A stretch of DNA of 64,000 bases from positions 62,001-126,000 of the forward strand of contig MEPB01000068.1 of the NCBI GenBank assembly GCA_001769385.1, read 5' to 3'. The position numbers were made by a program, and so were the translations under genes. Source of the DNA: Bacteroidetes bacterium RIFCSPLOWO2_12_FULL_35_15. GTDB taxonomy: Bacteria; Bacteroidota; Bacteroidia; 2-12-FULL-35-15. Below are positions 5,187 through 37,536 of the stretch, piece by piece; positions within the stretch are counted from its first letter, which is position 1; every line of letters starts with the position of its first letter. The notes beneath the pieces are model-generated. The model searched no databases. It had not been told where the DNA came from and was given only the letters and a program-made list of their open reading frames with translations.

Positions 5187-5839
5187 GTCATTTCGAACGG
5201 AATGCAATGAAGAGAGAAATCTGCTTATCGAGGTGAGATTTCTCCCAGAGTTTATCCTGAGCGGAGTCGAAGGAGTCGAAATGCCATTAATAACTGGCAT
5301 TTCGATCGGAATGTAATGAAGAGAGAAATCTCATTTCGCAAAGAAGAGATTTCTCCTTGGCAGTCGAAATGACATTAGGGGACTGTCATTTCGATCGGAA
5401 TTTAATGAAGAGAGAAATCTCATTTCACGAAGGAGAGATTTCTCCTTGGCAGTCGAAATGACATTAGGGGACTGTCATTTCGAACGGAATGCAATGAAGA
5501 GAGAAATCTGCTTATCGAGGTGAGATTTCTCCCAGAGTTTATCCTGAGCGGAGTCGAAGGTGTCGAAATGCCATTAATAACTGTCATTTCGATCGGAATG
5601 CAATGAAGAGAGAAATATCATTTCGCAAAGAAGAGATTTCTCCTTGGCAGTCGAAATGACATTAGGGGACTGTCATTTCGAACGGAATGCAATGAAGAGA
5701 AGAAATCTCATTTCGTGAAGGAGAGATTTCTCCTTGGCAGTCGAAATGACATTAGGGGACTGTCATTTCGAACGGAATGTAATGAAGAGAGAAATCTCAT
5801 TTCACGAAGAAAATTTTTCTCCTTGGCAGTCGAAATGAT
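5187..5839 (+). repeat. Tandem array of seven R1 palindromic repeats
   Basis: Seven units begin with GTCATTTCGA or a near variant at 5187, 5296, 5385, 5474, 5583, 5672 and 5762, with spacings 109, 89, 89, 109, 89 and 90 bases. Each unit has outer arms GTCATTTCGA ... TCGAAATGAC and inner arms GAGAGAAATCT ... AGATTTCTC around a short loop. The long units carry an extra 'CCTGAGCGGAGTCGAAGG' segment. The order long-short-short repeats twice (5187-5473 and 5474-5761), and equivalent units match closely, so a ~287-base triplet was duplicated. No coding frame here is credible. Confidence 0.9.
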
Positions 5840-11618: not shown

Positions 11619-12654
11619 AATAATTAATTTATCTTTTTGTGGTTTGATAAGCATTCAGTTATTATCAGCACAAATTATTTCTCCATTTAATAAAGTAATG
11701 GTGGCCGACACTTCCGGTAATTATTCCTTTATTGTGAGTGGCCATTTTCACGGAGCTTCCACGAATCTTTCCACCTATCCTGCTTCCACGTTATTAGCGA
11801 ATATAGATAACTTGAACTCTTTGAAGCCAAATTTTTTAATGAGTTTGGGGGATATGTTCCTGGATGTGAATGAAACCTATTTAGAACATTATAAAACATC
11901 GTTATTTGAAAAGTTAAAAATGCCATTGTTGAATGCTGTTGGTAACCATGATCTGTCAAATGGTAATATGTATGAAAAAGTATTTGGCCGGACATATTTT
12001 TCATTTACTGCTCAATCAGAATTATTTATTGTTCTGAATACGGAAATAAATGATGGAAGCATTAAAGGAGAGCAGCTCGAATTTTTAAAAGTTTGCTTAA
12101 ATAAAGCAAAGTCAGCTGATATAAAAAATATTTTTATTTTTTCTCATCGACCTATTTGGGCGGAGGGAAATCCTAAATATGATATGTTATTCGAAGGTAA
12201 CACGCATAGTCAGTTTGGTTCACCCAACTTCGAAAAAGAAATTCGTCCTCTACTCGAAAATATGACCTTACCAATTTTTTGGATTTCCGGATCGTTGGCA
12301 GGTGGACCGGCTTCATTTTTTTATGATAAAGATGAAAACGACTCTATAACATTTATGCAAACCGCAATTCGTGATTTGCCAAGGGATGCCGTCTTACAAA
12401 TAAATGTAAAAGATGGAAATGTTACGTTCAAAGGAGTTTCTTTAACAGGTCAGACACTCGAACCAATTGAAAACTACACGATTGATTATTGGAAAAAAAC
12501 GATTCCGCCCGAAGCCTCTTTTAATTACAGACTAATTCCTTTATTATTTATTCAAATGTTGAAGCATTACTTTTTTTGGATTGGTTTTGTATCTTCATTA
12601 ATTTTCTTTTTTGTTTTAAAATGGATCTTTAACAGATGGAAAAAAAGAAAATAG
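11596..12654 (+). CDS. Membrane-anchored metallophosphoesterase
   Basis: A 352-residue protein with an N-terminal signal-like segment (residues 9-25) and a C-terminal membrane helix (about 322-345). The calcineurin-like phosphoesterase fold is indicated by 'SGHFHG', 'LGDMFLD', 'AVGNHDLSNG' and 'IFSHRPIWAEGN', which supply the Asp, Asn and His metal ligands. The first motif reads 'SGHFHG' rather than the common 'DxH'. The start is the GTG at 11596 inside the preceding gene's end; the stop overlaps the next GT4 gene by 19 bases. Beside two CotH genes it is a candidate opposing phosphatase, or an enzyme acting on a phosphorylated glycan. Confidence 0.82.
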   Translation: MIKRNVNKIINLSFCGLISIQLLSAQIISPFNKVMVADTSGNYSFIVSGHFHGASTNLSTYPASTLLANIDNLNSLKPNFLMSLGDMFLDVNETYLEHYKTSLFEKLKMPLLNAVGNHDLSNGNMYEKVFGRTYFSFTAQSELFIVLNTEINDGSIKGEQLEFLKVCLNKAKSADIKNIFIFSHRPIWAEGNPKYDMLFEGNTHSQFGSPNFEKEIRPLLENMTLPIFWISGSLAGGPASFFYDKDENDSITFMQTAIRDLPRDAVLQINVKDGNVTFKGVSLTGQTLEPIENYTIDYWKKTIPPEASFNYRLIPLLFIQMLKHYFFWIGFVSSLIFFFVLKWIFNRWKKRK

Positions 12655-13682
12655 TTTTTCTTTATACCGAAATTGCTGATTATTTTTTAGCAGGATGTAA
12701 AGCATTAATCGAAAAAAATGCAGAAGTGCATATAATACGCTATCCTGTGAATAAAGAAGCGCCATTTCAATTCGATATTCCTGAAAAAATAAAAATTTAT
12801 GAACGGAATAATTACGATAAAAAAACTTTACTTTCTCTCGTTGAATCAATCAACCCGCAAATAATTGTATGCAGTGGTTGGGTTGACAAAAGCTATTTAA
12901 CTATATGTAAAGTTTTTAAGAAAAAAGCGATAACTGTTTTAACCCTAGATAATCATTGGAGAGGAGATATTAAACAACGTATCGCCTCCTTCATAAGCCC
13001 TTTTTATTTACTAAAACGATTTTCGAATTGTTGGGTGCCCGGTTCTTTGCAATTTGAATATGCACTAAAATTAGGTTTTAATAAAAAATCAATTTTATCA
13101 GGGTTTTATTCTTGCGATTTTGATATGTTTTATAAACAATACCTGGCAAATAAAGATGAAAAACAAAAATATTTTCCAAAACGTTTTATTTTTGTGGGTC
13201 GTTATTACGAATTTAAAGGCATCAAAGATCTTTGGCAGGCATTTATTGAGTTGCAGACAAAGGAACCAACAGAATGGGAGTTATGGTGCTTAGGAACAGG
13301 TGATATTGAACCCATTAAGCATGATAAGATAAAGCATTTCGGATTTGTTCAACCGAAAGATCTACCTGAATTTATAAAGGAAACAGGTGTTTTTGTCTTG
13401 CCTAGTCATTTTGAGCCCTGGGGCGTTGTGGTGCATGAATTTGCAGCTGCAGGTTTTCCTATCATTTGCAGTGATGAAGTTGGTGCAAGGGGAATATTTG
13501 TTGAAGAAAATGTGAATGGCTATATTTACAAAGCCGGTGATGTTGGAGAATTAAAAAAGCAATTGAAAAAGATGATGAGTTTAGGAGATCAAAAATTAAT
13601 TGAGATGGGGAAAAAAAGTATAGAGAAAGCAAAGCAAATTACTCCGGATAGTTGGGCAGATACGTTGATGAAATTGTTGTAA
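12636..13682 (+). CDS. GT4 family glycosyltransferase
   Basis: A 348-residue GT-B enzyme. The donor half shows 'RFIFVGRYYEFKGIKDLW', 'WELWCLGTGDIEP' and 'PSHFEPWGVVVHEFAAAGFPIICSDE' split across residues ~255-280, the classical GT4 E-x7-E region. It overlaps the upstream phosphoesterase by 19 bases, so it belongs to the same operon as the CotH and O-antigen-ligase genes. It is the last gene before the repeat cluster that carries the GIY-YIG gene. Substrate unknown. Confidence 0.9.
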   Translation: MEKKKIVFLYTEIADYFLAGCKALIEKNAEVHIIRYPVNKEAPFQFDIPEKIKIYERNNYDKKTLLSLVESINPQIIVCSGWVDKSYLTICKVFKKKAITVLTLDNHWRGDIKQRIASFISPFYLLKRFSNCWVPGSLQFEYALKLGFNKKSILSGFYSCDFDMFYKQYLANKDEKQKYFPKRFIFVGRYYEFKGIKDLWQAFIELQTKEPTEWELWCLGTGDIEPIKHDKIKHFGFVQPKDLPEFIKETGVFVLPSHFEPWGVVVHEFAAAGFPIICSDEVGARGIFVEENVNGYIYKAGDVGELKKQLKKMMSLGDQKLIEMGKKSIEKAKQITPDSWADTLMKLL

Positions 13683-13710: not shown

Positions 13711-13980
13711 GTCATTTCGAACGAAATGAAATGAAGAGAGAAATCTGTTTATCGAGGTGAGATTTCTCCCGGTGGTCGAAATGACATTAGGGGTTGTCAT
13801 TTCGAAAGGAATGAAATGAAGAGCGAAATCTGTTTATCGAGATGAGATTTCTCCCGGAGTTTACCTGAGCGGAGTCGAAGGGGTCAAATGAGACGTACGA
13901 AGTCATTTCGACCGAAATGAAATGTAAAGAGAAATCTGTTTTGGAGAACGAAATGCAATGAAGAGAGAAATCTCATTTTA
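13711..13980 (+). repeat. R1 palindromic repeat cluster, left of GIY-YIG gene
   Basis: Complete R1 units begin at 13711 and 13796. They are followed by two left halves only: 13902 (GTCATTTCGACC... to about 13943) and 13946-13980 (GAACGAAATGCAATG..., lacking the first nine bases). The last half stops just before the GIY-YIG gene's leader. The matching right half appears on the other side of that gene at 14329-14351. The gap 13683-14004 contains nothing else. Confidence 0.85.
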
Positions 13981-14004
13981 GAGGAATCATAATTTAAAAT
14001 TAAA

Positions 14005-14325
14005 ATGAAACACCATAACTATTTTGTATATATTTTAACAAATAAAAACAAAACTGTTTTATACATTGGTGTTACGAATAACCTTGAAAGAAGAATATAC
14101 GAGCATGAAAGTAATAGTGGAAATAATTATAAATTTACCTCAAAATACAATTGCATAAATCTTATTTATCATGAAAGATTTGGTAATATAAATCAAGCAA
14201 TTGAAAGGGAGACAGAATTAAAAAAGTGGAGAAGAGAAAAGAAAAATGATTTGATAAATGCAGTTAATCCAAATTGGGATTTTCTAAATGAGGAAATTAA
14301 AGAAAGATTTTTTGAAAAGGTTTGA
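14005..14325 (+). CDS. Small GIY-YIG domain nuclease
   Basis: A 106-residue protein made almost entirely of one GIY-YIG domain: 'YFVYILTNKNKTVLYIGVT' supplies the two Y-x-x-(Y/I)-G strands at residues 6-24, then 'NLERRIYEHES' with the conserved Arg (R33), and a later 'AIERETELKKWRREKK' with the metal-binding Glu. Length fits the short UPF0213/URI-like class. Members cut DNA using one metal ion; this subgroup has no established role. It is alone on its transcript, with R1 repeats within 25 bases upstream and 4 bases downstream, and separates two polysaccharide gene blocks. That setting suggests a mobile or repeat-processing enzyme (inference). Confidence 0.85.
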   Translation: MKHHNYFVYILTNKNKTVLYIGVTNNLERRIYEHESNSGNNYKFTSKYNCINLIYHERFGNINQAIERETELKKWRREKKNDLINAVNPNWDFLNEEIKERFFEKV

Positions 14326-14328
14326 AAA

Positions 14329-14633
14329 TAAAATTTCTTTCTGATCGAAATGGTTAATTTTACTGTCATTTCGAACGGAACAAAGTGAAGAGAGAAATCT
14401 CATTTCACGAAGATGAGATTTCTCCCTCTGGTCGAAATGACATAAAGTACTGTCATTTCGAACGGAATGAAATGAAGAGAGAAATCTGTTTATCGAGGTG
14501 AGATTTCTCCCGGAGTTTACCTGAGCGGAGTCGAAGGGGTCGAAATGACATTAAAAACTGTCATTTCGAACGGAACAGAGTGAAGAGAGAAATCTCATTT
14601 AACGAAGAAAAGATTTCTTCCTTTGCTCGAAAT
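14329..14633 (+). repeat. R1 palindromic repeat cluster, right of GIY-YIG gene
   Basis: It begins with a right half only (14329-14351, 'AATTTCTTTCTGATCGAAATGG', pairing with the left half at 13946-13980), followed by full units starting at 14365, 14452 and 14560. The 14452 unit is the long form carrying 'CCTGAGCGGAGTCGAAGG'. The last unit ends about 25 bases before the asparagine synthase ATG, so the gap 14326-14660 is essentially all repeat. Confidence 0.85.
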
Positions 14634-14660
14634 GAACAGTTCTACTTGAAACAATAAATT

Positions 14661-19120: not shown

Positions 19121-19535
19121 TGTTTAAATTTCGAACACAATGAAATGTAGAAAGAAATCTGTTTATTGAACGCAATTGTCATTTCGAACGGAACGAAGAG
19201 AAGAGAGAAATCTGTTTATCGAGGTGAGATTCTTCATTTCATTCAGAATGACATTTAGGAAAGTCATTTGGAACGCAATGAAATGTAGAAAGAAATCTGC
19301 TTATCAAACACAACTGTCATTTCGAACGGAATGGAATGAAGAGAGAAATCTGCTTATCGGAGGAGAGATTCTTCCTTTCATTCAGAATAACATTTATGAA
19401 CTGTCATTTCGAACGGAATGGAATGAAGAGAGAAATCTGCTTATCGAGCTGAGATTTCTTCATTTCATTAAGAATGACATTTAGGAAAGTCATTTCGAAA
19501 GGAATGGAATGAAGAGAGAAATCGGCTTATCGAAA
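19121..19535 (+). repeat. R1 repeat cluster at end of polysaccharide locus
   Basis: Six units in the same orientation begin near 19128 (degenerate), 19178, 19263, 19316, 19403 and 19489. Several have lost the right outer arm and instead end 'TTCATTTCATTCAGAATGAC', so the outer palindrome is reformed as GTCATT ... AATGAC. Frames through the array translate to repeating 'FRTEWNEERNLL', a repeat artefact and not a protein. Confidence 0.85.
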
Positions 19536-19546
19536 AAAATAAAAAG

Positions 19547-37356: not shown

Positions 37357-37536
37357 TTTCATTTCGACTCCTTCAACTCCGCTCAGGATAAACTCATGAA
37401 GAAATCTGTTCTTTGCAAAATGAGATTTCTCTCTTCATTTCATTGCGTTCGAAATGACAGTCCCTAAATGTCATTTCGACCAGAGGGAGAAATCTCTCCT
37501 TCGATTAACAGATTTCTCTCTTCATTTCATTCGACA
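37357..37536 (-). repeat. Two R1 repeats, inverted orientation
   Basis: Unit one (37357-37458) ends 'CATTGCGTTCGAAATGAC', the reverse complement of the usual left arm, and includes the long-form segment 'CTTCAACTCCGCTCAGG'. Unit two (37470-37536) is a short form that has lost its final arm ('CATTTCATTCGACAT'). These are the only clear R1 copies on the - strand and the last ones seen; none occur in 37.6-64.0 kb. Confidence 0.8.

Follow-up and report, generated by a model that had tools for sequence, protein, structure and literature searches.

A small gene set among palindromic repeats (R1) in the 64,000-nucleotide stretch of DNA analysed here (the window) probably encodes an Ssn-type, site-specific GIY-YIG nuclease that targets the R1 arms around it, with gene and palindrome together making up one selfish unit. 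In its cleanest form this arm-gene-arm unit is ~350–420 bp long.

The window comes from a draft genome of 5.39 Mb (G000:C68:62001-126000). Its open reading frame (ORF) at 14005-14325 on the forward strand, flanked by a glycosyltransferase gene (12636-13682) and by asnB (from 14661), matches the GIY-YIG domain (Pfam PF01541) at 63 bits. Across 42 GIY-YIG homologues, residues Y9, Y20, G22, H34, E69, and N88 are invariant and R30 nearly so, a pattern consistent with an active GIY-YIG centre. The AlphaFold model of the 106-residue protein (pLDDT 89) has UPF0213 (1zg2), Slx1, and the UvrC N-domain as its nearest solved folds. The protein has no separate DNA-binding domain, so specificity would have to come from the one domain present and its short C-terminal portion. 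The gene and the R1 features of the window are the following:

13711-13785, + strand: R1 unit, full hairpin (bulged left arm of 35 nt, right arm of ~25 nt)
13796-~13892, + strand: R1 unit whose right side contains a second repeat motif, CTGAGCGGAGTCGAAGG; right end degenerate or damaged
13902-13937, + strand: left half-unit GTCATTTCGACC...GAGAAATCT, the outer left arm of the gene-bearing unit
13946-13980, + strand: second left half-unit, adjoining the gene, outer end lost
14005-14325, + strand: GIY-YIG single-domain nuclease gene (106 aa), intact, active-site residues conserved
~14330-14353, + strand: right half-unit AAAATTTCTTTCTGATCGAAATGG, degenerate, where the gene-bearing unit closes
14365-14441, + strand: R1 unit, full hairpin, fold z-score −5.3
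14452-14549, + strand: R1 unit with CTGAGCGGAGTCGAAGG insertion
14560-14636, + strand: R1 unit, full hairpin
5187-5839, + strand: R1 tandem array of the same family, without a nuclease gene
19178-19540, + strand: R1 tandem array with diverged right arms, without a nuclease gene
37358-37518, no strand assigned: isolated R1-type hairpins without a nuclease gene

R1 takes the form GTCATTTCGA...GAGAAATCT / AGATTTCTC...TCGAAATGAC. A strict pattern for its left arm occurred 16 times in the window against 0.01 in shuffled sequences, and 58 times genome-wide against none for the reversed control. Folded as single-stranded DNA, two clean full units did better than their shuffles (z = −2.6 and −5.3); a search of the region against Rfam gave no family above threshold. 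The units are asymmetric, the left arm (~35 nt) holding an extra stretch of ~10 nt (AATGAAATGA) and the right arm measuring ~25 nt. Each hairpin therefore has a direction, and the R1 arrays of the window all share one orientation. In two units (13796-13892 and 14452-14549) the CTGAGCGGAGTCGAAGG motif lies within the right arm, which looks like the insertion of one repeat family into another.

A sequence-only reading of this DNA had placed the gene amid R1 units, with left halves on its left and a right half on its right; that layout is real, with coordinates correct to within a few bases. The same reading had put the gene in the loop position of a palindrome, an arrangement that cleaner relatives do show. 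In the window itself the nested unit is degenerate: the half-units adjoining the gene are worn and the right half bounding it is degenerate, so that the window alone is no proof of nesting, which was tested on relatives instead.

The 80 closest homologues were fetched from a genome collection, with 343 other ORFs at the same loci serving as controls. Most of these homologues belonged to Bacteroidota, and one each carried the label Ignavibacteria, Dadabacteria, or Nitrospiraceae (metagenome bins, so that these labels are less sure). R1 arms lay within 350 bp on both sides of 59 of the 80 homologues and 3 of the 343 controls; when an arm on any side was counted, the figures were 68/80 and 45/343. 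Arm density fell from 8.3 per kb beside the gene to 0.04 per kb at 3–4 kb and to none at 4–5 kb, and most of the 12 homologues without R1 arms carried related repeats with another core (for example GTCATTCTGA, GTCATCCCGA, or GTCATTCCCG). The comparison with other genes suggested by the sequence-only reading thus came out strongly in favour of a pairing. The orientation of the nearest arms gave only a moderate signal by itself (31 L-R, 16 R-L, 11 L-L, 11 R-R), and we therefore relied on inverted repeats spanning the gene. Perfect 16-nt repeats of this kind were found at 44 of 157 repeat-type GIY-YIG loci and at none of 433 control ORFs (Fisher p = 3e − 28); at 14 of 16 matches, the counts were 85/157 and 17/433.

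These counts bear on passive co-occurrence, in which small genes and repeats would simply accumulate in the same permissive intergenic regions. Both are indeed intergenic and turn over rapidly. However, other small ORFs at the same loci had arms on both sides in 1 of 96 cases and perfect spanning repeats in 0 of 160, and tRNA-linked and YazA-type GIY-YIG genes lack the pattern. The within-locus controls, for arm enrichment as for spanning repeats, refute this explanation, to which we assign almost no weight.

In 44 loci with anchored nested units, an arm starting GTC(A/G) stands upstream of the gene and its complement downstream; the gene splits the loop of the hairpin, and both arms persist. 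The cleanest units measure 353–423 bp in total and consist of arms, gene, and little else (L083 and L029 are good examples), and on sphingomonad plasmids (L152, L153) arms of 30–31 nt are 97–100% complementary. Compact units end in YGTC(A/G)...(T/C)GACR, the palindrome usually being one base longer, with a pyrimidine before GTC and a purine after GAC (complementary in 35/44). Terminal inverted repeats are thus present, as arms of ~20–30 nt. A search for target-site duplications in the 44 units gave no flank match of at least 4 nt, and shorter matches were about as frequent as in shuffles. A DDE transposon, insertion sequence, or MITE was rejected on this ground and because the only gene is the GIY-YIG gene, with no DDE transposase.

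Empty sites, which the sequence-only reading had proposed looking for, were found for complete arm-gene-arm units as well as for units without the gene. In the window's own genome, a 373-bp arm-gene-arm insert (L007) separates a GNAT gene from lysC; congeners G006 and G011 lack the insert and have only a few bases between these two genes. The unit at L124/L125 is missing in G037, G025, G006, G030, and G041, each with both flanking genes present. G038 carries a gene-less 100-bp unit that the corresponding site of G007 lacks, and at another site compared between these two genomes G007 has extra units in an array with a 59-nt period. Whether such differences reflect gain or loss we infer by parsimony only. 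Between L125 and L142, homology is confined to the element, arms included, and the flanks are not shared, which means that the unit occurs as one piece at two sites. At a site where two congeners share both flanks (L127, 1331-2060; L141, 1290-1860), the nuclease gene has opposite orientations in the two, having been inverted in place; the loci also differ in the number of flanking hairpins. The nuclease frame of L007 is broken, and the survey of the window's own genus yielded several broken copies with internal stops. Elsewhere in the same genome (L004, 1501-1730; G000:C37:236181-236399), a broken GIY-YIG gene is surrounded by several copies of a longer repeat, GTCAGTTCGAGTG...GTATCGAGAA; this seems to be a unit from a different family in decay.

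Within the window's own genus, where the protein query found matches in 27 of 36 genomes, the tree and the flanks together show separate nuclease clades, every one of them accompanied by a repeat of its own (GTCATTTCGA, GTCATTGCGA, GTCATCCCGTG, GTCATCCTGAACTTG, GTCAGTTCGA, GTCATTTCGAGTTTATCGAG). Over the whole tree the repeat label changes 41 times against 69.5 in shuffles (0 of 200 as low; uncorrected for closely related hosts), a clustering that near-copies favour. All seven genomes with a GTCATCCCGTG-type nuclease hold the GTCATCCCGTG repeat, in 3–103 copies, and none of the 25 genomes without this repeat has such a nuclease (Fisher p = 4e − 5). Similarly, genomes with an R1-type nuclease have more R1 arms (p = 2e − 5), and those with a GTCATTGCGA-type nuclease more GTCATTGCGA-type arms (p = 0.01). 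Several different nuclease/repeat pairs coexist in one genome.

Repeats also occur without their nuclease. In four genomes with the GTCATCCCGTG repeat (G003, G023, and G037 among them) no nuclease of that clade was found, and no small GIY-YIG gene was detected in G034 (27 R1 arms, 99% complete) or G036 (31 GTCATTGCGA-type arms, 98% complete), both members of the window's genus. We read such genomes as holding relics or as having lost their nucleases, and they are a real limit on the claim. The proposal that R1 is a non-autonomous family driven by GIY-YIG proteins, made in the sequence-only reading, accordingly draws support from the enrichment, the empty sites, and the clade-own repeats, and is weakened by G034 and G036, repeat-rich genomes of the kind that the same reading had named as counting against it.

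The same genomes fit a different account, in which the nuclease gene is a homing parasite that inserts into the loops of existing hairpins, while the palindromes have another origin or driver (a HUH/RAYT-type enzyme, or selection as terminators) and are not spread by the nuclease. Gene-less repeats far outnumber genes (135 R1 arms were counted in the window's own genome), and a sister clade located in or beside tRNA genes resembles target parasitism. We nevertheless consider this account unlikely, since the repeat type changes with the nuclease clade inside one genus, arms and gene are jointly absent at empty sites, and homology between copies at different sites extends over the arms.

If the nuclease instead acts on its own palindrome, as we favour, the gene-less hairpins would be the non-autonomous form of the arm-gene-arm unit. 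A repeat exposed as a single strand or hairpin, on the lagging strand or in incoming transforming DNA, would be recognised and nicked by the nuclease, and the nicked site would then undergo host repair or recombination templated by another repeat copy. Such templated repair could copy hairpins, turn a plain hairpin into a gene-bearing one, expand arrays, and reverse the gene between its arms. GIY-YIG enzymes are hydrolytic and are not known to have strand-transfer activity; because of this, the unit could spread only with the help of host repair. Copying by host repair would also explain the lack of duplications, the arrays, the inversion in place, and the position of genes in hairpin loops.

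Among the closest known systems is the Ssn family, reportedly named by Chenal, Veyrier, and colleagues in Nature Communications in 2025 and said to comprise site-specific GIY-YIG nucleases that cut single-stranded DNA. Its cognate repeat, NTS, is reported in hundreds of copies in Neisseria, where Ssn is said to modulate transformation, and homologues reportedly number in the thousands. The window gene resembles Ssn in encoding a small single-domain GIY-YIG protein with an intact active site and in having a cognate repeat whose many genomic copies lie around it or nearby. A relative in Neisseria gonorrhoeae, 42% identical to the window protein over 84 aa and possibly the published Ssn itself, lies within a dRS3/NIME array, with 10 exact dRS3 copies on one side and 6 on the other (16 in total). 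Ours differs in the R1 sequence and in its Bacteroidota host. On every feature compared, the window gene fits the Ssn family, and site-specific single-strand cleavage is predicted for its product.

Given Ssn, the pairing of nuclease and repeat is itself probably not new, and the statement in the sequence-only reading that no such pairing was established for GIY-YIG enzymes is probably out of date. Our literature search found no paper joining bacterial palindromes to GIY-YIG enzymes; the Ssn paper lay outside the material searched. That paper is not known to describe arm-gene-arm nesting, empty sites, in-place inversion, or clade-wise repeat change, and less seems to be known about the arm-gene-arm element, its mobility, and its many paired specificities.

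For the Neisseria Ssn/NTS pair, a role in host function has reportedly been described, and the pair studied here could likewise serve mainly the host, with the nuclease tuning DNA uptake or degrading incoming single-stranded DNA and the repeats kept as its sites. The gonococcal homologue within dRS3/NIME arrays and the invariant catalytic residues of the 42 homologues both suit this explanation. However, the patchy occurrence even in one genus (27/36 genomes with a match), the several broken copies, the L007 frame included, and the presence of several nuclease/repeat pairs per genome all resemble selfish turnover, which makes a mainly host-serving pair quite improbable.

Other comparisons concern architecture. 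As in REP/RAYT (TnpA-REP) and REPIN systems, short dispersed palindromes accompany one enzyme gene flanked by inverted copies, with tandem or inverted arrays; in contrast, the partner here is a hydrolytic GIY-YIG nuclease, whereas RAYT is a HUH (Y1) tyrosine transposase, and the 44 nested units start mostly with (T/C)GTC(A/G), without a fixed GTAG or CGTC tag. Absence of the gene at the corresponding site in relatives is a feature shared with free-standing homing endonucleases. Fungal mitochondria have double-hairpin elements and GIY-YIG mobile ORFs. They likewise combine mobile hairpins with GIY-YIG endonuclease genes, but these systems are organellar and their homing endonucleases larger and multi-domain. 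The housekeeping proteins UPF0213/YazA and YhbQ share their fold and size with the window protein (1zg2 and 1ywl are the nearest solved structures); unlike the window-type genes, which have variable neighbours, theirs form a separate clade, keep a vertical operon position, and lack flanking repeats.

The NIME/dRS3 repeats show the same architecture around the gonococcal GIY-YIG homologue; with their arms, GTCATTCCC...GGGAAT, they fall into the GTCAT-type series that includes the R1-like repeats, but with a different inner sequence. dRS3 is a long-known neisserial repeat, and the portions consulted of the two papers that define it (PMC2911385, PMC9778887) make no link between NIMEs and a nuclease.

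Such nuclease/repeat pairs are found in Bacteroidota, Pseudomonadota, Cyanobacteria, Ignavibacteria, and other groups. On plasmids and chromids, homologues have palindromic repeats on both sides in Rhizobium, Sinorhizobium, Shinella, Azospirillum, Novosphingobium, Sphingobium, Aeromonas, Planktothrix, and Spirosoma (Bacteroidota), and in the same set a Photobacterium homologue has them in its downstream flank. We tentatively raise the possibility that palindrome-borne GIY-YIG units, with neither a DDE/HUH enzyme nor target duplication, form a widespread, unrecognised class of mobile element, in which each nuclease clade would maintain its own dispersed GTCAT-type hairpins across several phyla; this could explain the origin of repeats familiar for many years, the neisserial dRS3/NIME arrays for example. 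In many bacteria, much of the intergenic DNA consists of short palindromic repeats, most families of which are without a known driver. If a 100-residue nuclease were that driver, the origin of many repeat families could be tested with one protein and one oligonucleotide, and the clade-by-clade pairing would offer a ready catalogue of nuclease/recognition-sequence pairs, useful for single-strand DNA tools.

A phage vehicle was rejected, as the only phage concerned was one Rhizobium phage, with two records and a weak match. On Azospirillum lipoferum plasmid AZO_p3 (L150, 2857-3475), a GIY-YIG unit interrupts the suf iron-sulfur operon at a point between sufB and sufC. The view of all small GIY-YIG genes as one thing was also rejected: the repeat-flanked group does not include the tRNA-linked and YazA-type genes, which are without spanning repeats, and a YazA-type gene of Bacillota (L154), in a housekeeping operon, had no flanking repeats. 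The tRNA-linked genes form a separate clade of small GIY-YIG proteins (~80–120 aa, 11 rows, support 97) adjoining tRNA genes for Ser, Met, Asn, Asp, Glu, Pro, and Ala, with members at L005 (1500-1850), L010 (1382-1693), L171, L172, L176, L178, L182, L184, and L268. Partial tRNA copies often stand on the other side of the gene, and the arrangement looks like homing into tRNA genes.
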